Assembly: GCA_937885075.1 (NCBI GenBank)
Contig: CAKZYZ010000305.1
Coordinates: forward strand, 1-37,660
DNA length: 37,660 nt
Source: an uncultured bacterium
Lineage (GTDB): Bacteria; Auribacterota; Erginobacteria; Erginobacterales; Erginobacteraceae
Direction of reading: 5' to 3'
Position 1 is the first letter of the stretch, and every line of letters begins with the position of its first letter. The notes below the pieces were generated by a model, which saw only the letters and a list, made by a program, of their open reading frames with translations, did no database searches and was not told the origin of the DNA. Of the stretch, positions 4,983-35,745 are shown in pieces. Both the position numbers and the translations under genes were made by a program.

Positions 4983-5780
4983 AACTCAGGGATTCGAAGA
5001 TTGGGGAATAGAGATTATATTTCCGGACCTGGAAAATATAACTCATTCATTTGTTTCGTTATATTAAAAAACTATACTGCTTTTCATAATTATCGGCAAG
5101 AAATGAAAAGATGTGTCCCTCTTGCAACAATAATAAATCCAATAACCGGTTATGTCTTGAGGCATTACATTACCCCCGGCGAGTTCCCAACTTCGCCAAG
5201 GCTTCGTCGGACAGGTATCTCGCCGGAGTATAAGTTCAATAGTTACATGCGTTCTCAAAACAAAAACGACCCCTGCCACCCCCGATATGCACCGGGATGC
5301 CCCGGAATAATCGGGATGCAAGCACAAGCACTCGAATGGCAGGGGAGAAATCTCAAAAGCTAATCACCGGTTACCCTCCCCCATCGGGTGTGGTGTAAGA
5401 ATCGCGTATAGCTGATGAACTCATTCACCCGTCACATAAAGTGACGGGGGTCTGGGGGGAACTGGTTTTACCGGTGAAAATGGGGAATAATGGATAGATT
5501 TGGGATACATGATTCAGGACTGGACAGAAGGAGGGAGAAGCAGGGATGAGGAGGGATAAGCAAGGAATAGCAGGGAGGATGGAGGATAGGCTAAATATCC
5601 AACAAGGAATATCCAATGAAAAAGGAAATTTCGCGTAATTCGCGTAATTCGTAGTTCATAAATAGTCGAGGTGAGGGAACTTTTGCGAATTTTGCGCCTT
5701 TCTTGACCCGCCATAGCTCGAAGAGTGACGGTTGGTTTGCGGCAAAAAAAAAGGCGATGTAGAGGATAGAAATTCGTAGT

Positions 5781-7918: not shown

Positions 7919-10702
7919 CTACCTGGTCAACGGAATGTCATTTGATGCTCCGTAATAAACCCGGGTTACTCCCCGGATGGCCCATAGTCCGGAACCGGAA
8001 CGGAAGATGCCGATTCCGTCCGCCCCGTTCCCCTGGAAGTCGGCGGGAACAGGGTCGTCAGAACTGCCTCCGAAATAGACCCGGGTTACCCCCCTGATCG
8101 CCCAGAGTCCGGAACTGCTTCGGAATATCCCTGAACTCCAGGTTCCGCTCCCATCATAGTCCCCTGGAATGGTCGTATCGGCCGGGCCTCCGAAATAGAC
8201 CCGGCTGATTGCCCGGAAAGCCCAGAGGCCGGATGCCGATCGAAAGATTCCGATATCCTTAGTCCCATCCCCTCTATAATCCCCGGGGAGCGGGAGGTCG
8301 GAGGCTGAACCAAAATAGACGCGGCTTACTCCCCGCAACGCCCAGAGGCCGGAGGACGGGCGGAAGATACCAATATCCCGGGTTCCATCGCCATCATAAT
8401 CCGCCGGAATCGGTTCATCCGAGGTCCCCCCGAAGTAGACCCTGGTAGCTCCCCGGGCAGCCCAGAGACCGGAACTCACCCGAAAGATGGCGCAGTCCGC
8501 GGTCCCATCCCCGTCATAATCTCCCGGAAGCGGCTCATCCGTGCCTCCCCCGAAATATACCCGGGTAACCCCCCGGACCGCCCAGAGACCGGACTCGGGA
8601 CGGAAAATAGCGATATCCGAGGTTCCGTCCCCGGAAAAATCCGTGGAGTCGGGATCAAGGCTTGCCGGGGCGGCCTCCCATAGATTACAACAATTCGCGT
8701 CGTGATATGTGCTCCCTCCTCGATCCGGATAGATCAATCTCCCACTCCCGGTGCCGGGTATATAGGGGAGATAAATATTCTTGGTTCGTCCTCCGTCATA
8801 TTCCACGGTTATATAGTCTCCACTATGGACATTCCACACCGGATCAAGCCCTAACTTTAAATTAATCTCCAGTTGATAAGAGATGGCAATATCCGTGGTA
8901 GAGACAAATGAATTTTCACGATCATTAATATACCCCCAGTCAAGCGATTCAGTATTTGATAGGTAGGCCCTGAAGTAGTAGGTCCATCCTGCCGGATTAG
9001 TCGCCCTGGTGGGATGAATAGTCGCGTCCTCCAATACTTTCAGATATAACGGATCATGACACCCGGGAGGAACATCCCGCGGGGTTGGGGTAACGGTTGG
9101 AGTGGGGGTAGGTGTAATCGAAGGGGTCGGGGTCGGAGTAACGGATGGAGTCGGAGTTATAGATGGGGTTGGGGTATTTGTCGGCGTGGGCGTGGGGGTC
9201 GGAGTGATACTGGGTGTCGGAGTTACAGATGGGGTAGGTGTGACCCATTTCATCTTTACACAAAAGGCATCGTTCCCCCCAGCTCTAACAGACTGATAGG
9301 GATTGGCCGTGGGGAAATTATCCGATGTGGTATAGCCGGTCATGTATCCCCACTTATCAGGTCCGGCAAAGATCCCGTAACCGCGATCATTGCCGCTGCC
9401 GCCCAGATAGGTGGAATAGAGAAGAGATGTGCCTGAAGAGATGAAGACGGTGACAAAGGCATCATCCGTCCCTCCCCCGTAGCCGGGCTGATAGGAATTC
9501 CGGGTGGGGAAATTGGTTGATTGAGTGGCTCCGATCAGATATATCCTCCCCTCTCCATCAAGCGCAATGCCGCTTCCATCGGCACTGCCGTCGAATTTTC
9601 CACCGGTGTAATCAGCTAACAATCCTCCCAGATAGGTGGAAAAGAGCAATGACGAACCGGTTGATGAGAGGCGGGTGACAAAGGCGTCATAACTGCCGGC
9701 GTTATGGGCTTGAAAGGCATTAATGTTCGGAAAATCAGATGAGAAAGTATCACCGGCAACATAGGCAGAACCTAAAGCATCCAGTACGATACCATCGGCA
9801 ATATCATTATTATTTCCGGTTAGATAAGTAGAATAGATAAGCGCTGAACCGGATGAGTTCAATTTAGATATAAATGCGCCATAAGTCCCGTTTCCATCAA
9901 CCTTCTCAGACTGATAGGAATTAACAGTAGGAAAATTTGTGGACCTTGTATACCCCGCGATATATGCGCAGTTACTTCCATCAACCGCAATCCCATTGGC
10001 CCCATCCTTCCATCCCCCTCCCAGGTAGCTGGAATAGAGCAATGCTGATCCTGAAGTTGTAAGGATAAATATAAACGCGTCATCATCAGCCGAACGGCCT
10101 GATTGATAAGCATTAAGGGTCGGGAAATTATCCGAGTTCGTAAAACCGGTTACATAACTCCGTCCGGCAGATACAGCAATTCCCCGCCCTTCCTCATCTC
10201 CGCTTCCACCGGCATAGGTGGAATAGACAAGCGTGGAACCGGAAGAAGATATTTTAGCAATAAATATATCTGTTCCTCCGGCAAAGCTTGCCTGATATGG
10301 GTTCACGGTAGGAAAGTCGGATGAGGCGGTGCTTCCGCAGAGATAGGCGGACCCATCCGAAACAACCTCGATCGAGTAGCCGTAATCGCTATCAGCACCA
10401 CCGAGGTAGGTAGAATATACAAGCTCGGATCCAGAGGTGGTAAATTTAGTAACGAAGGCGTCTCTACTTCCATTCCCGCTCAACTGATAGGCCGACAGAG
10501 TGGGAAAATCACTGGATGATGTGTTTCCACAGATATAAGCTGACCCGCTGGCGTCAACCGCTATCGACCAGCCATAATCATTACCCGCGCCACCCAGATA
10601 GGTGGAGTAGTTAAAAAGAAATGTTCCATCCTGGGGCAGAGCATTGACCGCAGGAGATATTAATAACATTACTATCAATAGTATTTGATAAAAAATTCTC
10701 AT
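7919..10702 (-). CDS. Secreted SBBP beta-propeller protein with (TPTPS)n linker and C-terminal FG-GAP/VCBS-like repeats
   Basis: Signal peptide; repeated YSTYLGG..D..IAVD..G..Y..G.T.S.DFPT; Pro/Thr linker; six DGxGTxDxxIFRxxSGLWAxRG repeats. Confidence 0.9.
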
Positions 10703-11180: not shown

Positions 11181-12704
11181 ATGAGGAATCACTGGCAGAC
11201 TCTCAGCACAGTTCTCAGGGACATCGGATCGCTCTTGATTGTCCTGGGAGGGTTCCTCCTCCTTTCGGCGGCCTCGGTCTTTATATTTGGTGAATCCAGA
11301 ACCGGTCTTCTCACCTTCTTTGCCTTTATCGGGCCCGGGATTCTCTCCATCCTCCTGGGAGTTACCATCCGGAGATATCTCCCCCCCGGAGATTTGAACC
11401 GGCTACAGGCCATGCTGGTCTGCAGCCTGGGCTGGATTGTATTTTCTCTGATCGGGGCGCTCCCCTTTGTAATCGCGCTGGATGTCAATTACCTGGACGC
11501 CGTATTTGAAACCATGAGCGGTTTTACCACCACCGGAATCACTGTATTTATCGGCCTCGACCGGTTGCCGAAGAGCATCCTCTTCTGGAGAAGCCTCACG
11601 CAATGGATCGGGGGGTTGGGGATCCTGACCTTCTTTTTAGCCATCAGTTTTCAGGGAAGTAACACTCACCGTCTCTTCGGAGCGGAAAGCCATAAGATAG
11701 ATGTAGGGCGACCGGTACCGGGGGTGGCCAATACTCTGAAGATCCTCTGGGGGATATATATTCTCTTCACAGCGCTGATCGGCCTGGGATTGATTATCTC
11801 CGGAATGGGAATATTTGACAGTATCTGCCAGTCCTTTACCGCACTCTCCACCGGGGGGTTTTCCCCCCACGACGCAAGTATCGGATATTACCGGCTATCC
11901 GGATTTCCTCATTATATCGCCATCGAATACATAATAATCCTGGGAATGCTCCTGGGAGGGACCAACTTCCTCATTCATTACCGTCTGCTAATAGGTAAAT
12001 TCAAATCTATATACACCAATACCGAGTTGCGTTACTGGTTCGGCTTTATCGCAATCTTTATTGTCATTATTATCGGGGAACGGGCCATCCATCTCCAGAG
12101 GGCGGAGGTAGCCCTACCGGAGAATGCGGGCTATATACAGGTATTGGAGAGAAACTTCCGTACAGTAACATTCCAGGTTGTCTCCATCATCACCACCACC
12201 GGTTTCGCCACCCGTGATATCGGCGATCCCTACTTTGGAACCGTGGCCCGCCAGCTCTTTCTGGTTATGATGGTGATCGGAGGATGTGTTGGTTCCACCA
12301 GTGGAGGCTTCAAGGTACTTCGCGCCGCCATAATGGTCAAATCAGTCCGGAGGGAGGTATTCCGTCTTCGGGCTCCCCGGAGTGCTGTTTCAAGCATTAT
12401 TGTCGACGGCAAGCCGGTTAACTCCGATGAGGTCCGGCGGGTCGGGGCATTATTCTTCGCCTGGATAACCCTGTTAGCCGCCGGCGGCATTATTACCGCG
12501 CTCTTCTCGGACCTGCCGGGAATAAGCTCCTTCTCCGGGATGTTCAGCGCTCTGGGTAATATCGGCCCCTGCTACATCCCCGGCAGCGATATCCCCCAGC
12601 TAAACCCGGTAATTAAAATTACCTATATCTTCGGGATGCTGGCCGGCCGTCTGGAGATAATACCAGTGTTGTTACTTTTTAGCCGAAAGGCCTGGAGAAG
12701 TTAG
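11181..12704 (+). CDS. trkH: TrkH-family potassium uptake transporter
   Basis: Multi-TM, SGFTTTGIT, QWIGGLGI, TALSTGGFS, TTTGFATRD, GNIGPCY selectivity loops. Confidence 0.92.
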   Translation: MRNHWQTLSTVLRDIGSLLIVLGGFLLLSAASVFIFGESRTGLLTFFAFIGPGILSILLGVTIRRYLPPGDLNRLQAMLVCSLGWIVFSLIGALPFVIALDVNYLDAVFETMSGFTTTGITVFIGLDRLPKSILFWRSLTQWIGGLGILTFFLAISFQGSNTHRLFGAESHKIDVGRPVPGVANTLKILWGIYILFTALIGLGLIISGMGIFDSICQSFTALSTGGFSPHDASIGYYRLSGFPHYIAIEYIIILGMLLGGTNFLIHYRLLIGKFKSIYTNTELRYWFGFIAIFIVIIIGERAIHLQRAEVALPENAGYIQVLERNFRTVTFQVVSIITTTGFATRDIGDPYFGTVARQLFLVMMVIGGCVGSTSGGFKVLRAAIMVKSVRREVFRLRAPRSAVSSIIVDGKPVNSDEVRRVGALFFAWITLLAAGGIITALFSDLPGISSFSGMFSALGNIGPCYIPGSDIPQLNPVIKITYIFGMLAGRLEIIPVLLLFSRKAWRS

Positions 12705-12710
12705 AAAAGA

Positions 12711-12777
12711 AGTTGAAAGTGCCTAAAGTGAAGAGAAGTTGAAAGTGCCTAAAGTGCGCTAAAGTGCCTAAAGTTAA
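12711..12777. repeat. Nonamer array J1 (AAAGTGCCT)n
   Basis: gttgaaagtgcctaaagtgaagagaagttgaaagtgcctaaagtgcgctaaagtgcctaaagtt. Confidence 0.7.
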
Positions 12778-13016
12778 AAACCCCGCCTCACCAGCCCGGA
12801 AAAATGAGCACAGGACACGGGCGAAGGAGGCACTATTTTGCTTAATTTATTTACAATTATTGGCGAAGATCCGGCCGCCTCCAGATTGATAATTCCGAAA
12901 AGGTAATTTAAAATTTAGGTTTTGTTCTGAATTTTAATGTTGTAAACTGTGTTTTTGATTTAATAATGCTAATGAAAAATACAATCGTCGCTGGAAAGTA
13001 AATATTGAACAAACCT

Positions 13017-13085
13017 GTTCTCTCGTAGTGGCTGCCTTCAGGCTGCCACTAGTGGCGACCTGAAGGTCGCCGCTACGAGCACGGG
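13017..13085. repeat. Family A core, degenerate copy A2
   Basis: ctcgtagtggctgccttcaggctgccactagtggcgacctgaaggtcgccgctacgag; GTAAGCTT ends missing. Confidence 0.75.
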
Positions 13086-13112
13086 GCAACGAGATCACTG
13101 AAAAACCAGGCG

Positions 13113-13295
13113 AAAGCAACAACTTTAGGCACTTTAGCGCACTTTAGGCACTTCAAACTTCTTCGCGGCTGATTTAGACTAACACCCGGTGGCGACCTGA
13201 AGGTCGCCGCTACGAGCACCGGGCAACGACCACCGGAAGACCAGGCAAAAGCAACAACTTTAGGCACTTTAAACTTTAGGCACTTCAAACTCTTC
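13113..13295. repeat. Nonamer arrays J2/J3 with a partial family A core (A3) between them
   Basis: caacaactttaggcactttagcgcactttaggcacttcaaac ... ggtggcgacctgaaggtcgccgctacgag ... caacaactttaggcactttaaactttaggcacttcaaac. Confidence 0.7.
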
Positions 13296-14026: not shown

Positions 14027-14189
14027 ATTTTGGGACAGGACGATTAAAAAAGAAAGGTAAGCAGTAAGCAGTAAGCGGTGAGCAGTGGAGCCGGTTGCCA
14101 GGTGATGTTTACCGCTTACTGCTTACCGTTTACTGATTACTGTTCTTTGAAAAGGGTCCGAGGTAGGTGGAATCGTCCTGTCCCAAAAT
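14027..14189. mobile_element. Family B TIR element, most complete copy (B2)
   Basis: Perfect 19-bp TIRs ATTTTGGGACAGGACGATT / AATCGTCCTGTCCCAAAAT; interior of inverted heptamer arrays. Confidence 0.8.
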
Positions 14190-14244: not shown

Positions 14245-15894
14245 ATGAATATTACCATTGCGCAACTGAATTCCATTGTCGGAGATATAACGGGGAATCT
14301 TGCCCGGGTTAAGGAGGCCATCACGGGCCTAAATAAGGAGACTGACCTGATTGTATTTCCGGAATTATTTATTACCGGATCTGTGCCGCGGGATCTCCTG
14401 AAGCTATCCTGGTTCATCAAAAAAGCAGAAGAAGCGGTCATGAACCTGGTGAAATTTTCTGCCGGTTATCCTGATCTGGGAATCATTATCGGTGCCCCTC
14501 TCCCTACCGGAGAAAGAGATGGTATCGGTCTCTATAACGCCGCGCTCCTGATATCCGGGGGAGAGATTCTCCTGAAACAGGCTAAATCGATACTCCCTTC
14601 TTATGATATCTCCGATGACGGGAGATATTTTGACCCTTCACCAGGTCTGAAGACAATCCCCTTCAAAGATGAGATCCTGGGGCTCACTATCGCCGAAGAC
14701 GCCGGGAACTATCCCGGCCTCTGGGAACAGAGATTTTTTCCGACCGATCCGATGGCCGATCTGGCGAAAAAAGGAGCCACCATCTTCATCAATATTGCGT
14801 CGTCACCTTTCACCGTCGGCGGCGATGAGGTCCGGTTCAATGTCCTGAAAAACCAGGCGCGGCATTATCGGATCCCTCTTCTCTTTGTCAATGCTATCGG
14901 CGGGAATGACGAATTGATCTTTGACGGCGGAAGTCTCTTACTCGATCAAGAAGGACGGGTGGTAGAGCTCTTCCCATACTTTGAAGAGCTGATTGCCGCC
15001 GTTGACACCTCTCTCGCGGGTATAGAGGATCGGTTTAGACCCCGGGATAAGATCGAGTCCATCCATGACGCGCTCGTTCTCGGCCTCCGGGATTATATGA
15101 AGAAGTGCGGGTTTATCGGGGCGATAATCGGTCTCTCCGGCGGAATCGACTCCGCGGTTACCTGCGCGCTGGCGGTGGAAGCGGCCGGGAGTAAAAATGT
15201 CTCCGGGATCGCGATGCCGTCGATCTACACCTCGGATGAGAGCAACCGCCTGGCGGAAGAACTGGCGGAGAACCTGGAGATTAATCTGACAGTTATCCCG
15301 ATCTCTCCCATCTTTGAATCCTATACCGCCGGACTGGGGGATCACCTGGAAGGCGACGCGGAGAAGAAGAGCCTGGCAATGGAGAATATTCAGGCCCGGA
15401 TCCGGGGGAATATTCTCATGACCTTCTCCAACCGATTCGGACCGATCGTTCTCTCCACCGGGAACAAAAGCGAATCGGCAACCGGTTACTGCACTCTCTA
15501 CGGCGATCTGACCGGAGGTCTGGCGGTGATATCCGACCTGTTTAAAACTACCGTCTATGAACTGGCCGAGTATATCAATCGCCAGGATGAGATTATTCCC
15601 CGGGGGATAATAGACCGACCACCGTCAGCGGAACTCAAACCGGATCAGACCGATCAGGATACCCTCCCCCCCTACCCTCTTCTTGACCGGATCCTACGCT
15701 GGTATCTGGAAGAGGGGAGATCAGCGGATGAGATCGAAGCGATGGGGATCGATTCCGAAGTCATAGACTGGGTAATCCGGGCGATAGCGAAGAGTGAGTA
15801 TAAGAAACATCAGGCTCCTCCAGGTCTGAAGGTAACCGGGAAAGCATTCGGCGCGGGCCGGAGAATGCCGATCGCCTGTCACGTCCTGATTTAA
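14245..15894 (+). CDS. nadE: Glutamine-hydrolysing NAD+ synthetase (nitrilase + NadE)
   Basis: N-terminal nitrilase (MNITIAQLNSIVGDITGN), C-terminal GLSGGIDSAVTCALA PP-loop, STGNKSE. Confidence 0.95.
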   Translation: MNITIAQLNSIVGDITGNLARVKEAITGLNKETDLIVFPELFITGSVPRDLLKLSWFIKKAEEAVMNLVKFSAGYPDLGIIIGAPLPTGERDGIGLYNAALLISGGEILLKQAKSILPSYDISDDGRYFDPSPGLKTIPFKDEILGLTIAEDAGNYPGLWEQRFFPTDPMADLAKKGATIFINIASSPFTVGGDEVRFNVLKNQARHYRIPLLFVNAIGGNDELIFDGGSLLLDQEGRVVELFPYFEELIAAVDTSLAGIEDRFRPRDKIESIHDALVLGLRDYMKKCGFIGAIIGLSGGIDSAVTCALAVEAAGSKNVSGIAMPSIYTSDESNRLAEELAENLEINLTVIPISPIFESYTAGLGDHLEGDAEKKSLAMENIQARIRGNILMTFSNRFGPIVLSTGNKSESATGYCTLYGDLTGGLAVISDLFKTTVYELAEYINRQDEIIPRGIIDRPPSAELKPDQTDQDTLPPYPLLDRILRWYLEEGRSADEIEAMGIDSEVIDWVIRAIAKSEYKKHQAPPGLKVTGKAFGAGRRMPIACHVLI

Positions 15895-15929: not shown

Positions 15930-16066
15930 CCCCTACCTCGGACCCTTTTTAAAGAACAGTAATCAGTAAACGGTAAGCAGTAAGCGGTAAACGTCACCTG
16001 GCAACCGAGTCCACTGCTCACCGCTCACCGCTTACTGCTTACCTTTCTTTTTCAATCGTCCTGTCT
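15930..16066. repeat. Family B heptamer element copy B3 (inverted relative to B2)
   Basis: cctacctcggaccctttttaaagaacagtaatcagtaaacggtaagcagtaagcggtaaacgtcacctggcaaccgag...caatcgtcctgtc, near-identical to the reverse complement of B2. Confidence 0.85.
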
Positions 16067-16830: not shown

Positions 16831-18405
16831 TTACTTCATCTGTGCGCTTAATATACGGCTTATCCCGGCCAGCGAGTAAGGTTTGGCTATCATCCCCGCG
16901 AAACCAGCCCTCTCATAGTCGGCCATCACCGAGTCAATCGAATAACCACTGGAGACAATTGCTTTCACTTCCGGGTCAATCTCCTTCAGTCTCTCCAGCG
17001 CTTCCTCCCCCCCCATCCCGCCTTTCACCGTCAAATCGAGTATCACCGCCACAAACGGCCTTCCGGACTCTCTGGCTTCCCTGTACTTCTCCACCGCTTC
17101 CTCCCCATCCACTGCTGTCTCCACCTCATAGCCCAGTTGCTCTATCAGACGTGCCGCCACCTTCCGTATCATCTCCTCATCATCCAACAGGAGCACTCTC
17201 CCCTCCCCTAAAATTATATCTTCTTTCATCTTTTTCTCTTGAGGTTCCTCTTTCGAGGCGGGAACGTAGATAATAAATGTGGTACCTTTCCCCGGTTCCG
17301 ATACCGCCCGGATAGCGCCGGAGTGATTTCTCACGATCGAGTAAACGCTGGCCAACCCCAGCCCGCTTCCCCTCTGTTTTGTGGTAAAATACGGGTCGAA
17401 TATCTTCTCTATATACTCTTTGGGGATTCCCACTCCTTTATCCGCCACCTCCACCTTTACAAATCTACCTCCTTCAATTGATGGCACCGCTCCTTTCTTA
17501 AGTTCCACGTTCCCCGCCCGCACTTCTATCTCCCCCCCTTCCGGCATCGCCTGGACGGCATTGATCACCAGGTTACTGATCACCTGATCAATCTGCCCCC
17601 GGTCCGCTTCCACCGGCCAGAGATCCCGAGAAATATCGAACCGGCAGCTCACATTGGATCCGTGGGTGGCAAATCCAGTTACCTCTTTCAGCAGTTCTCC
17701 GACCCGGATCACCTCCTTCACCGGCTTCCCCCCCCGGGAAAAGGTAAGAAGCTGATGGGTCAGCCCCTGGGCCCGGAGGCAGGCCGCCTCCGCTTCGACA
17801 AGTGGCTTATACAGTTCACTCCCCTCTTCGGCATAGATCCGGGCATAGGAGACATTTCCCAGGATAGCAGCCAGGATATTGTTGAAATCATGAGCTATCC
17901 CACCGGCCAGCGTACCCATCGACTCCAGCTTCCGGGCATTTATAAGTTCTTCCTCCATCAGCTTCCGTTCGGTGATATTCTCCGATATTCCCACGTACCC
18001 CAGAACCTGGCCTGAAGAATCCGCCAGAGGAGTCAGCTTGAGATTGATCGTTATCAGATCTCCATCTTTCCGCCGGTTGAATATCTCTCCTTCCCAGAAA
18101 CCGTCGGAAGCCTCGGCTGCGATCAGCCCCGCCAGATCAATCGGGTTACCCGGAATCCCCTCAAAATACTTATTCGCTTTCAACCCCATCAGCTCTTCCG
18201 GATTATAGCCCAGCAGATCAGTACAGGCCGCGTTGACATAAACAATCTTATGTTCAAGGTCGGTGATGACCACCATCTCGCTCAGCCCTTCCAGGGCAAA
18301 GAAGAAGGCGGAGAGAGGATCAGGTTCCCGGGGCGCAGTCTCTAGGCCGGTTAGGTCCCGGCGGATCTTCGACAATTCTTCTAATAAGGATGGATTGGGT
18401 TTCAT
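16831..18405 (-). CDS. PAS - histidine kinase - receiver hybrid sensor kinase
   Basis: GGIAHDFNNILAAILGN H-box, DKGVGIPKEYIEKIFDPYFTTK..GSGLGLASVY ATPase motifs, C-terminal REC VLLLDDEE..VILDLTVKGGMGG. Confidence 0.93.
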   Translation of the reverse strand: MKPNPSLLEELSKIRRDLTGLETAPREPDPLSAFFFALEGLSEMVVITDLEHKIVYVNAACTDLLGYNPEELMGLKANKYFEGIPGNPIDLAGLIAAEASDGFWEGEIFNRRKDGDLITINLKLTPLADSSGQVLGYVGISENITERKLMEEELINARKLESMGTLAGGIAHDFNNILAAILGNVSYARIYAEEGSELYKPLVEAEAACLRAQGLTHQLLTFSRGGKPVKEVIRVGELLKEVTGFATHGSNVSCRFDISRDLWPVEADRGQIDQVISNLVINAVQAMPEGGEIEVRAGNVELKKGAVPSIEGGRFVKVEVADKGVGIPKEYIEKIFDPYFTTKQRGSGLGLASVYSIVRNHSGAIRAVSEPGKGTTFIIYVPASKEEPQEKKMKEDIILGEGRVLLLDDEEMIRKVAARLIEQLGYEVETAVDGEEAVEKYREARESGRPFVAVILDLTVKGGMGGEEALERLKEIDPEVKAIVSSGYSIDSVMADYERAGFAGMIAKPYSLAGISRILSAQMK

Positions 18406-18450
18406 TCTATCTACACAGATTAGAAGATGGGGGGAGTGATCAGTAGAAGG

Positions 18451-18576
18451 CTAGTTATCGGTTATCGGTAAAATCATACCCAGTGAAGGGATATTAATCG
18501 GTAATCGGTAATCGGTTATCAGTAAAATCAAACCCGGTAAAAGGATAGTAATCGGTAATCAGTTATCGGGAATCAG
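18451..18576. repeat. Heptamer array H1 (GTAATCG/GTTATCG)n
   Basis: gttatcggttatcggtaaaatc...attaatcggtaatcggtaatcggttatcagtaaaatc...agtaatcggtaatcagttatcggg. Confidence 0.8.
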
Positions 18577-18588
18577 AACCTTTGATCT

Positions 18589-19026
18589 TTATGTTTTACC
18601 GACATCTCCATTGATCTCTTCAATGCTATATTCGACTGTTTCTTCTTTTATCAACTTCCCACAAAACTGCGACGATTTCCGTATCATTCCGTTGAGCATT
18701 CTCCCGATCTTCTGATACCGGTCTATTATTTCTTCATGCCTTGAAATATCGATATAGCCACAATCTAATGAAGTACCAAGCCAATGCTGGGTTTCTTGTT
18801 GTTCTCCATCAGAATCGGTTAACTTACTTATAAAATGATCCGGGTATCTTCTCTTCGCCCAGGCCTCGGCAAGCTGAGCTCCCACCGACCTTGAGGACCT
18901 ACGAATTTGAGATATTAAAGAATACCGCTCTTCTTTAGGGTAGGTTTTAGTTATCTCAAAGATCTCTTTCGCCAACTGTCGGGCAAGCTTATAGACTTCA
19001 AGATCACGATAACTTTTTACATACAT
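18589..19026 (-). CDS. Four-helix-bundle protein (23S rRNA intervening-sequence protein family, Avd-related fold)
   Basis: YRDLEVYKLARQLAKEIFEITKTYPKEERYSLISQIRRSSRSVGAQLAEAWAKRRY..F is the S23/IVP family signature; SD GGAGGAG upstream of ATG. Confidence 0.92.
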   Translation of the reverse strand: MYVKSYRDLEVYKLARQLAKEIFEITKTYPKEERYSLISQIRRSSRSVGAQLAEAWAKRRYPDHFISKLTDSDGEQQETQHWLGTSLDCGYIDISRHEEIIDRYQKIGRMLNGMIRKSSQFCGKLIKEETVEYSIEEINGDVGKT

Positions 19027-19044
19027 TAAGATATCTCCTCCCTG

Positions 19045-19126
19045 ATTACCAATCGCCGATCACTGATTACCGATCACCGTCCTGTCACCGATTACTGATA
19101 ACCGATTACCGTCCTGTCACCGGACC
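19045..19126. repeat. Heptamer array H2 (inverted relative to H1)
   Basis: gattaccaatcgccgatcactgattaccgatcaccgtcctgtcaccgattactgataaccgattaccgtcctgtcacc; contains the CGTCCTGTC of family B TIRs. Confidence 0.8.
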
Positions 19127-20076
19127 TGCCCACGCCAGTAATCAAGAATTGTCTTCAAGGTCTCATCGATTGAAAATTCCGGTTCCCAGCCGGTGGCTTC
19201 AGTAAAACGGGTATGGTCGCCCTGGAAGATCGGCACTTCGGAGTCGCGCATTCTCTCCGGATCCTGGACAATCTCAATCTCAACATCACTCAAAGCCAAC
19301 AACTTATCCAGGATATCCTTGATCTTATAAGCTCTTCCCGAGCATATATTATAGGGATCAGCCGGCTCACAGTACTCCGCGGCCAGCCGGTAAGCCCGAA
19401 CCATATCCCGGACATCGGTAAAATCACGGGAGGCCTGGAGATTTCCCACCTTCAGAACCGGATCTTGCTTCCCGGCCTCGATCCGGGCAATCTGGAGGGC
19501 GAAGGCGGATGTGACAAAACTCGGGCGCTGGCCGGGGCCGATATGATTAAACGGCCTTAATACCACGCATTTCACCCCCTTAACCCGATGATAGTAGGAA
19601 GCCGTCTCTTCCGCGCAGACCTTGGTAAGCGCGTAGATGTTCAAAGGCCTGAAGACATTATCCTCGGTGAGCGGCATCCGGGATCTATCAGCGTCTCCAT
19701 AGACTTCAGCGGAGCTGATAAGAATTACCCCGGCATCAGGCGCGTTCTCCCGGGCCTCTTCCAGCATGTTAAGGCTTCCCTTAACATTAATTTCGAAAGC
19801 CATCTGCGGGGCATTCTGAGCATCAGGAACGAATGAGGTTCCGGCCAGATGAAATATCGTATCCGGTCTCTGCTTCCTGATCACATGTCCCACATCCTTG
19901 GAACTTAGGATATCGCACTCATCCACCCGGACCCGGTATATAAGATCGGTGAGATTATTCAAGACCGCGCCATGACGTTCAATCCCGGAGACTATCCAGC
20001 CCTGCCCGATAAGCTCCCTCGCCAGATGACTGCCGGCGAAGCCGGCTATTCCGGTTATTAAAGCGCGTTTCGTCAT
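19117..20076 (-). CDS. NAD-dependent epimerase/dehydratase, GDP-6-deoxy-D-mannose reductase-like
   Basis: RALITGIAGFAGSHLARELI; FHLAGTSFV; ISSAEVYG; YALTK; adjacent to gmd. Confidence 0.85.
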   Translation of the reverse strand: MTKRALITGIAGFAGSHLARELIGQGWIVSGIERHGAVLNNLTDLIYRVRVDECDILSSKDVGHVIRKQRPDTIFHLAGTSFVPDAQNAPQMAFEINVKGSLNMLEEARENAPDAGVILISSAEVYGDADRSRMPLTEDNVFRPLNIYALTKVCAEETASYYHRVKGVKCVVLRPFNHIGPGQRPSFVTSAFALQIARIEAGKQDPVLKVGNLQASRDFTDVRDMVRAYRLAAEYCEPADPYNICSGRAYKIKDILDKLLALSDVEIEIVQDPERMRDSEVPIFQGDHTRFTEATGWEPEFSIDETLKTILDYWRGQVR

Positions 20077-20106: not shown

Positions 20107-21293
<1,187 letters not shown>

Positions 21294-32222: not shown

Positions 32223-32343
32223 ATTAAACCACGAATCTCGCGAATCTTCACGAATTAAAAGAAAAAATGAACTACGAATTTCGCGAATTACACGAATTTT
32301 ACTGAATTAGGGAGAATATCACCCGTTTAATCCGCGGTTATTG

Positions 32344-32481
32344 TCCCGAGACTTAATATTAAACAACTCGGGATCCTGAAGTATTTCGGTCCCGAGACTT
32401 AATGTGCAACAACTCGGGATCCCGAAGTATTTCGGTCCCGAGACTTAATGTGCAACAACTCGGGATCCCGAAGTATTTCGG
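32344..32481. repeat. Three tandem 46-bp hairpin units (family K)
   Basis: tcccgagacttaatgtgcaacaactcgggatcccgaagtatttcgg at 32344, 32390 and 32436. Confidence 0.95.
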
Positions 32482-33731: not shown

Positions 33732-34001
33732 TTATCTGGTCACCGGGATATCGCCGGTGGTGCCGAAGTAGACCCGGGTTATCCCCCTCACCGCCCAGAG
33801 GCCGGAAGAGGGTCGGAAGATGCCGATATCGTCAAGCAAGCTCCCGATTAAGTGCCCTGTTACCGGTCTATCCTCAGTTTGGCCGAAATAAGACCGGCTC
33901 CAACCCCGGATCGCCCACAAGCCCGTGGCGGGGCGGAAGATCGCGATCTCGTCCCGGAAGTGAAAGGCGGTCTTCCCGGAAGTAAAACAAACAAGGGTCA
34001 A
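33732..34001 (-). pseudogene. Truncated C-terminal tail of an SBBP/FG-GAP paralog
   Basis: [57 protein letters not shown] aligns to the end of the 7919-10702 protein (..[17 protein letters not shown]). Confidence 0.7.
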
Positions 34002-34118
34002 ACCCTAAAACAAACAAGGGTCAAACCCTAAAACAAACAAGGGTCAAACCCTAAGTTCTAAGTTTGGTAGCAAACAAAAACAAACAAGAAACAAGCAAGG
34101 GTCAAACCCTAAGTTCTA
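33984..34118. repeat. 23-bp tandem repeat (AAAACAAACAAGGGTCAAACCCT) x3 plus a degenerate copy
   Basis: Identical units at 33984, 34007, 34030; partial unit near 34089-34118. Confidence 0.95.
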
Positions 34119-35619: not shown

Positions 35620-35745
35620 CCCTACCTCGGCCCCTTTTTAAAGAACAGTAAACGGTAAGCAGTAAGCGGTAAACATCACCTGGCAACCGACTCCACTGCT
35701 CACCGCTTACCGATTACTGCTTACCTTTCTTTTTCAATCATTCTG
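35620..35745. repeat. Family B heptamer element copy B4
   Basis: cctacctcggccccttttta aagaacagtaaacggtaagcagtaagcggtaaacatcacctggcaaccgactccactgctcaccgcttaccgattactgcttacctttctttttcaatcattctg. Confidence 0.85.

Follow-up and report, generated by a model that had tools for sequence, protein, structure and literature searches.

A 23S rRNA IVP-family (PF05635) gene enclosed by inverted heptamer arrays: a candidate compact cassette of the intervening-sequence kind

An earlier note, made from the letters alone, had picked out a four-helix-bundle gene lying between inverted heptamer arrays in a 37,660-nucleotide stretch of bacterial DNA (the window, by which that whole stretch is meant). In the present study, this locus was followed up computationally, and the gene, both arms and their opposite orientation were found. 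A simple longest-ORF rule served to call the neighbouring genes, and their names were assigned by reading the sequence. The features are given below, with the strand where one was assigned.

12704-13291: AAAGTGCCT-type inverted arrays with no IVP gene, whose ends and inner sequence are common to three IVP cassettes of the same genome
14057-14126 (within 14034-14182): gene-less GTAAGCR hairpin, nearly identical to the hairpins at 15973 and 35655
15973-16042 (within 15973-16065): gene-less hairpin with GTAAGCR arms, from the sequence
16831-18405, minus: PAS sensor kinase with receiver domain, co-directional downstream neighbour, read from the sequence
18453-18576, minus: downstream (3') arm of 124 bp, antisense heptamers (CGATAACTGATTACCGATTAC...), from TRF (score 171) and the RNA fold
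18589-19026, minus: PF05635/TIGR02436 four-helix-bundle (23S rRNA IVP) gene, 145 aa, from profile matches and an AlphaFold model
19046-19122, minus: upstream (5') arm, sense GTNATCR heptamers (GGTAATCGGTTATCAGTAATCGG...), from TRF
19117-20076, minus: sugar-nucleotide epimerase/dehydratase-like gene, co-directional upstream neighbour, read from the sequence
20112-20308 (within 20107-20322): gene-less inverted array (hairpin) of the window heptamer family, from the sequence
35655-35724: gene-less hairpin with GTAAGCR arms, from the sequence

The upstream arm begins at the stop codon of the upstream gene and its first units stand at about 19046, 20 bp before the IVP start codon (TRF score 113 for 19056-19122), while the downstream arm, which holds an internal 54-bp higher-order repeat, ends about 12 bp from the IVP stop codon. 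Read along the gene, the 5' arm consists of GTAATCG/GTTATCA/GTGATCG and the 3' arm of the reverse complement. Rather than perfect heptamers, the arrays hold degenerate units (GTAATCG, GTTATCG, GTGATCG, GTAATCA), some of which are set apart by spacers. The two 250-bp flanks of the gene have 22 inverted 8-mers in common, and in the RNA fold of the cassette the arms pair nearly throughout, with the IVP gene as the loop (-207 kcal/mol against a shuffled mean of -172; z -4.25; 0 of 20 shuffles as low). In addition, the 5' arm contains CGTCCTGTC twice and also GACAGGACG twice, the latter having 6 copies in the whole window where 0.19 would be expected. The earlier note had recognized the repeat of a TIR element family (B) in the flanking array; this is a real sequence coincidence but no general feature of the cassettes. 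The occurrence of GACAGGACG beside the GTAAGCR hairpins suggests that the hairpin is carried inside a small TIR element. Two of the GTAAGCR hairpins flank an NAD synthetase-like gene (14245-15894) in inverted orientation.

The IVP protein matched PF05635 with 108.1 bits (cut-off 33.8) and TIGR02436 with 98.8 bits (cut-off 24) in profile searches. Its AlphaFold model (pLDDT 90) has the four-helix fold, with TMt of 0.81-0.93 to structures of the 2gsc and 2rld kind; 2gsc is the X. campestris protein Xcc0516. Furthermore, the likeness to the DGR accessory protein Avd that had been claimed for this fold was borne out, 4dwl being among the structure matches of the model (Foldseek TM 0.68/0.90). The bAvd profile PF22296 was reached with 47.3 bits (cut-off 40) and the DGR Avd profile was not (41.2 against a cut-off of 80). 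No nuclease or recombinase domain was recognized in the protein by profile searches or structure match, and a strong positive charge of IVP proteins was not seen, the net charge being +1 here with a median of +3. To judge from dN/dS values of 0.06-0.17 in eight of the nine measurable gene pairs, the protein is held under purifying selection. To our knowledge, structures are available for PF05635 and its function is not known.

The same genome carries 13 PF05635 genes above the cut-off and two weak ones. Strong inverted flank arrays (at least 10 inverted words) were found at 11 of these 15 genes and at 6 of 245 control genes (2.4%; P 2e-12), a conservative comparison, since the controls come mostly from contigs picked for arrays; the controls above the threshold were explained by separate gene-less hairpins or other flank repeats. 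The flank units differ from gene to gene and include CGTTGAA, GTGAGCG, GGACGGA, GTAATCG, the octamer ATCAGGAT, a GTATGGG type, AAAGTGCCT (three copies), AATGACG, TCGAACG and others, and two of the loci (L013 and L020) have a single arm each. The three AAAGTGCCT cassettes (L014, L015 and L016) lie in different places and are 77-84% identical, with homology that runs from array to array only. By its sequence, the gene-less unit at 12704-13291 of the window looks like an internally deleted relative of these cassettes. Inside it, at 13020-13230, there is a repeated palindrome, CTCGTAG(C/T)GGC...GACCTGAAGGTCGCCGCTACGAGCAC, which is also present in IVP locus L016 and which represents another hairpin family lying within the first one. 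At own-genome contig ends beside IVP arrays, adapter-like sequence (AGATCGGAAGAGCGTCGTGTAGGGAAAGAGTGT...) was seen (L005 at about 1890-2013, L012 at about 5400-5583), which is assembly contamination where repeats broke the assembly.

Heptamer hairpins elsewhere without a gene had also been anticipated, and they are numerous: 36 inverted pairs of the GTNATCR family, with short loops, were counted in 428 kb of the own genome, where gene-less arrays outnumber IVP genes. The third array noticed about 1 kb away, at 20107-20322, is present and is itself a gene-less inverted pair. In all 36 pairs the sense array precedes the antisense one, as it does in the cassette (36 to 0), and no strand bias was detected among gene-less hairpins (13:10). 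Their loops have a weak common core in either orientation to transcription (mean pair score 18.7; shuffled maximum 17.0). Overall, CGATTACCGATTAC with up to 2 mismatches gave 390 matches in the own genome against 9 for the reversed control. Tandem repeats of other kinds also occur in the window, namely a 46-bp unit three times at 32343-32481 (95% matches), a 23-bp unit three times at 33983-34054 (100%), and a 120-bp repeat at 8070-8633 that encodes a repeated motif of a long protein; this protein motif is found again in further ORFs of the own genome (window 33732-34001, L151).

Among GTDB representatives, a scan returned 67 relatives of the window IVP from at least 10 phyla, as judged by record title (Bacteroidota, Chloroflexota, Planctomycetota, Verrucomicrobiota, Calditrichota, KSB1, WOR-3, Desulfobacterota, Nitrospirota and others), a sample drawn by similarity to the window IVP, so that it tests the subfamily of that protein best. 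Most of them have the window heptamer, sense upstream and antisense downstream, with 171 sense and 44 antisense copies upstream and 33 and 156 downstream. The mean per 250 bp was 2.55 upstream and 2.33 downstream against a background of 0.135, a 17-19-fold excess. The genes upstream fall into 43 distinct families at 54 relatives, and in 18 of 50 measurable cases the upstream stop codon lies inside the first heptamers (offsets -4, -11, -18). These comparisons indicate that IVP cassettes have been transferred between phyla. No phage copies of the IVP were found at E 1e-5. Eight of eight inspected IVPs of cyanobacterial plasmids adjoin G-rich 7/8-mer arrays, and inverted words are common to both flanks in seven of the eight, strongly (at least 7) in five.

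The repeat unit follows the protein. In cross-genome pairs of 160 PF05635 genes from 88 genomes, counted with no correction for shared ancestry of loci, repeat words were common to 12, 23 and 32% of pairs at 50-60, 60-70 and more than 70% protein identity, and to 0.1% of pairs below 50% identity. For the class of at least 50% identity, the proportion was 20.2% and the permutation maximum 6.4%; outside the subfamily of the window IVP the sharing was weaker (4.9%, permutation maximum 3%). Furthermore, the own arms of a locus pair better than swapped arms, being the best of six in 83 of 160 loci with 26.7 expected (P 2e-24), and in 57 of 97 outside the subfamily. The unit thus changes between clades, and both arms change jointly. 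On these sequence comparisons, the repeat unit is evidently specific to the protein clade. A period of 7 was most common, in 68 of 81 flanks of PF05635 genes, followed by 8. In the genome G051, partial PF05635 matches stand head-to-head, about 30-200 bp apart, in at least 6 places (for example C7:104028-104554, C2:122174-122711 and C3:436717-437275); these are palindromic IVP pairs, possibly a different arrangement.

The earlier note had asked for enrichment of arrays near this family, and such enrichment exists in the own genome and in related and unrelated phyla. It had also held that genes of the family without arrays, or arrays no more frequent there than in the background, would speak against the idea. 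About a third of PF05635 genes indeed lack a clear inverted pair, and the enrichment over background is nevertheless strong. A requirement of arrays for a cognate IVP in their own genome was also considered and not upheld, since in 250 Bacteroidota genomes the window heptamer and such an IVP co-occurred only weakly, a cognate IVP being present in 5 of 16 with heptamer arrays and in 36 of 234 without.

Sites without gene and arrays, which had likewise been looked for, were found in two culturable genera. Between hemF and hemB in the genomes of 16 species of the genus Mesonia, seven sites are empty, five carry an IVP, one a decayed gene and three gene-less arrays. The empty sites measure 27-63 bp and have no arrays. 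The five cassettes are of two repeat types, TTAGCTT and AACAGTT, whose IVPs are 54-55% identical, the hemF and hemB of those species being 85-88% identical, and in a tree of hemF and hemB the gene-less states stand among filled ones. At one gene-less Mesonia site (L249), a homogeneous, expanded TTAGTAG array makes up the 5' arm and the AGCTAAA type, which is older, persists in the 3' arm, so that arms can be re-amplified independently after loss of the gene. In Pedobacter segetis, an IVP cassette lies between two part-ORFs of CusA, and in the 14 fetched relatives, none of which has the cassette and one of which is at 94% identity, these part-ORFs are directly adjacent. The CusA-type efflux pump consists of two adjacent ORFs in those relatives (L126, L258-L271); the cassette thus lies at a junction that was already there, and interruption of CusA by the cassette was rejected. 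At the Mesonia and Pedobacter sites, whose junctions have diverged, neither a target-site duplication nor a defined end was seen. Read from these alignments, cassettes are gained and lost at sites, and their copies are bounded by the arrays. The complementary arms, together with the enrichment of arrays and the empty sites, bear out the earlier suggestion that the gene and the inverted arrays form one unit.

We believe, with a probability of roughly 70%, that the window locus is a compact selfish cassette resembling an intervening sequence, which is read through from an operon and whose IVP recognizes its own heptamer. Such a cassette would consist of a sense heptamer array, the IVP gene and an inverted heptamer array, and would have entered between two genes of the same direction, right at the upstream stop codon. 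Transcription of the host operon would read through it, and the arms of the resulting RNA would pair into a long stem that leaves the IVP reading frame as its loop, the arrangement known from 23S rRNA intervening sequences. By analogy with those sequences, the stem would probably be cut by RNase III; this processing, like the chemistry of movement, is what we infer. An IVP oligomer would most likely recognize its own, clade-dependent heptamer, to judge from the way in which heptamer and protein clade go together and from the purifying selection on the protein. The IVP may thus bind its cognate heptamers or act on the hairpins, which is consistent with the clade-specific units, and would promote the spread or upkeep of array-bounded copies. 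The gene-less hairpins of the same heptamer would be relatives that lost the gene or that are served in trans. With tandem neighbours, IVP genes run in the same direction in 94 cases and in the opposite direction in 4 (308 and 42 for ordinary genes there), and 76% of IVP genes are co-directional with both neighbours against 64% of ordinary genes at these loci. This is most simply explained if the cassette must be read through from the operon or if antisense copies are selected against; ordinary genes are mostly co-directional too, so orientation alone is no proof of an RNA-level step.

Several other explanations were weighed against the selfish cassette. The arrays may be operators: the IVP would bind heptamers in its own mRNA or DNA and so regulate its own gene or the operon, and the cassette would move only together with its surroundings, by ordinary horizontal transfer. 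The clade-specific heptamers, the purifying selection, the sense orientation and the placement in operons would suit such a regulator. We consider it unlikely, since within one genus the same pair of genes may enclose a filled or an empty site, the homology of paralogous copies stops at the arrays, the cassettes stand beside many unrelated neighbours and gene-less arrays are many; regulation by the IVP could exist alongside mobility. If the arrays were instead pre-existing hot spots into which IVP genes inserted, the excess of gene-less arrays over genes in the own genome would be understood. This account is disfavoured and quite improbable, as the empty sites have no arrays, the heptamer matches the protein clade across phyla, and the copies at L014-L016 include both arrays.

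An element copied from RNA by a host reverse transcriptase in trans, with the IVP acting as Avd does in DGRs, could draw on the shared Avd fold (4dwl, bAvd), the sense orientation of cassettes and three RVT_1 genes in the own genome. RVT_1 was, however, present in 10 of 32 IVP-bearing and 8 of 27 IVP-free relatives and absent from several genomes with 13-19 IVP genes; the window contig gave no RVT_1 match, the own-genome enzymes being on other contigs; the IVP falls below the DGR Avd cut-off, and the gene-less hairpins have no strand bias. A reverse transcriptase partner was therefore rejected, there being no association with the IVP across the 59 genomes; it is not needed, and we give this route very little credence. 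Lastly, the arrays might have nothing to do with the gene and have arisen by slippage or as artefacts of assembly. Slippage was proposed for heptamers over-represented in several bacterial genomes (PMC4692102). As a full explanation this is refuted by the strict inverted polarity (36 sense-antisense pairs and no reverse one), the match of arrays to protein clade, and the persistence of the pattern in isolate genomes (Pedobacter, Mesonia) and complete plasmids, and it is the least credible of all.

Extending the selfish cassette to the whole family is more tentative, at somewhat less than an even chance. On this wider proposal, PF05635 proteins would be mobility proteins of very widespread miniature elements that end in clade-specific tandem heptamer hairpins and encode no recognized transposase, recombinase or reverse transcriptase; 23S rRNA intervening sequences would be those elements that came to lie in rRNA, and non-autonomous copies would account for many of the orphan heptamer arrays seen in bacteria and cyanobacteria. 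We know of decades of reports on heptamer arrays (cyanobacteria, Beggiatoa, Xanthomonas and others) and of no protein partner for them. A literature search, whose reach excluded preprints and most subscription journals, found no description of a generalized IVP-heptamer cassette. The match of heptamer to clade links PF05635 to these puzzling arrays and gives a testable ligand for the protein, the 23S intervening sequences would find a place in a wider class of tiny mobile elements, and Mesonia and Pedobacter offer natural presence/absence sites in culturable genera.

Like the cassette arrays, the published heptamer repeats are intergenic. PMC4679880 describes a TAACTGA heptamer in Beggiatoaceae, cyanobacteria and Bacteroidetes, for which horizontal transfer was suspected and 'no mechanism is evident'; repeated, it is the GTTATCA unit of the window heptamer family. 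PMC4692102 describes GGGAATC/GGGGATT of Xanthomonas and Nostoc, with 70-75 inverted pairs in Xanthomonas, and three heptanucleotides of Calothrix. In contrast to the cassette, neither names a protein partner in the accessible text, and the repeats are generally not found with mobile elements. Within the accessible parts of these two papers and PMC4990558, no link of repeat to IVP was found, except for the Coxiella heptamers before S23p. The DGR protein Avd resembles the IVP in fold, but no reverse transcriptase stands beside the IVP gene, and there is no correlation with reverse transcriptases across genomes. MITEs have gene-less inverted-repeat relatives in many copies, as this family does, whereas no transposase-encoding parent or target-site duplication was found for the cassettes. 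REPIN/REP elements with RAYT transposases are also short, palindromic and extragenic, and they too exist with and without a gene; the cassette differs in its tandem heptamer arrays, its four-helix-bundle protein and the lack of a transposase, PF05635 being the sole gene between the arrays, with no Y1 (HUH) transposase inside the unit.

The closest likeness is to the 23S rRNA intervening sequences of Leptospira, Coxiella and Brucella, which likewise have a PF05635 gene in the loop of a terminal-inverted-repeat stem (PMC4990558). In that paper, the Coxiella sequence carries tandem GACAGAT heptamers before the S23p gene and is cut by RNase III, and S23p is probably not made in vivo, per its authors. 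The cassette protein is under strong purifying selection, whereas that of Coxiella is decaying. The cassette lies in protein operons and not in rRNA and has long heptamer arrays for arms; one genome holds many copies whose heptamers differ, and gene-less hairpins exist. From the fold and the pairing of its arms, the cassette has the stem with a reading frame in the loop that marks a 23S intervening sequence; its window neighbours are protein-coding, and no 23S anchor motif was found in the fetched loci. Hence, being outside rRNA, the cassette is not a 23S intervening sequence by definition, but it would work like one.
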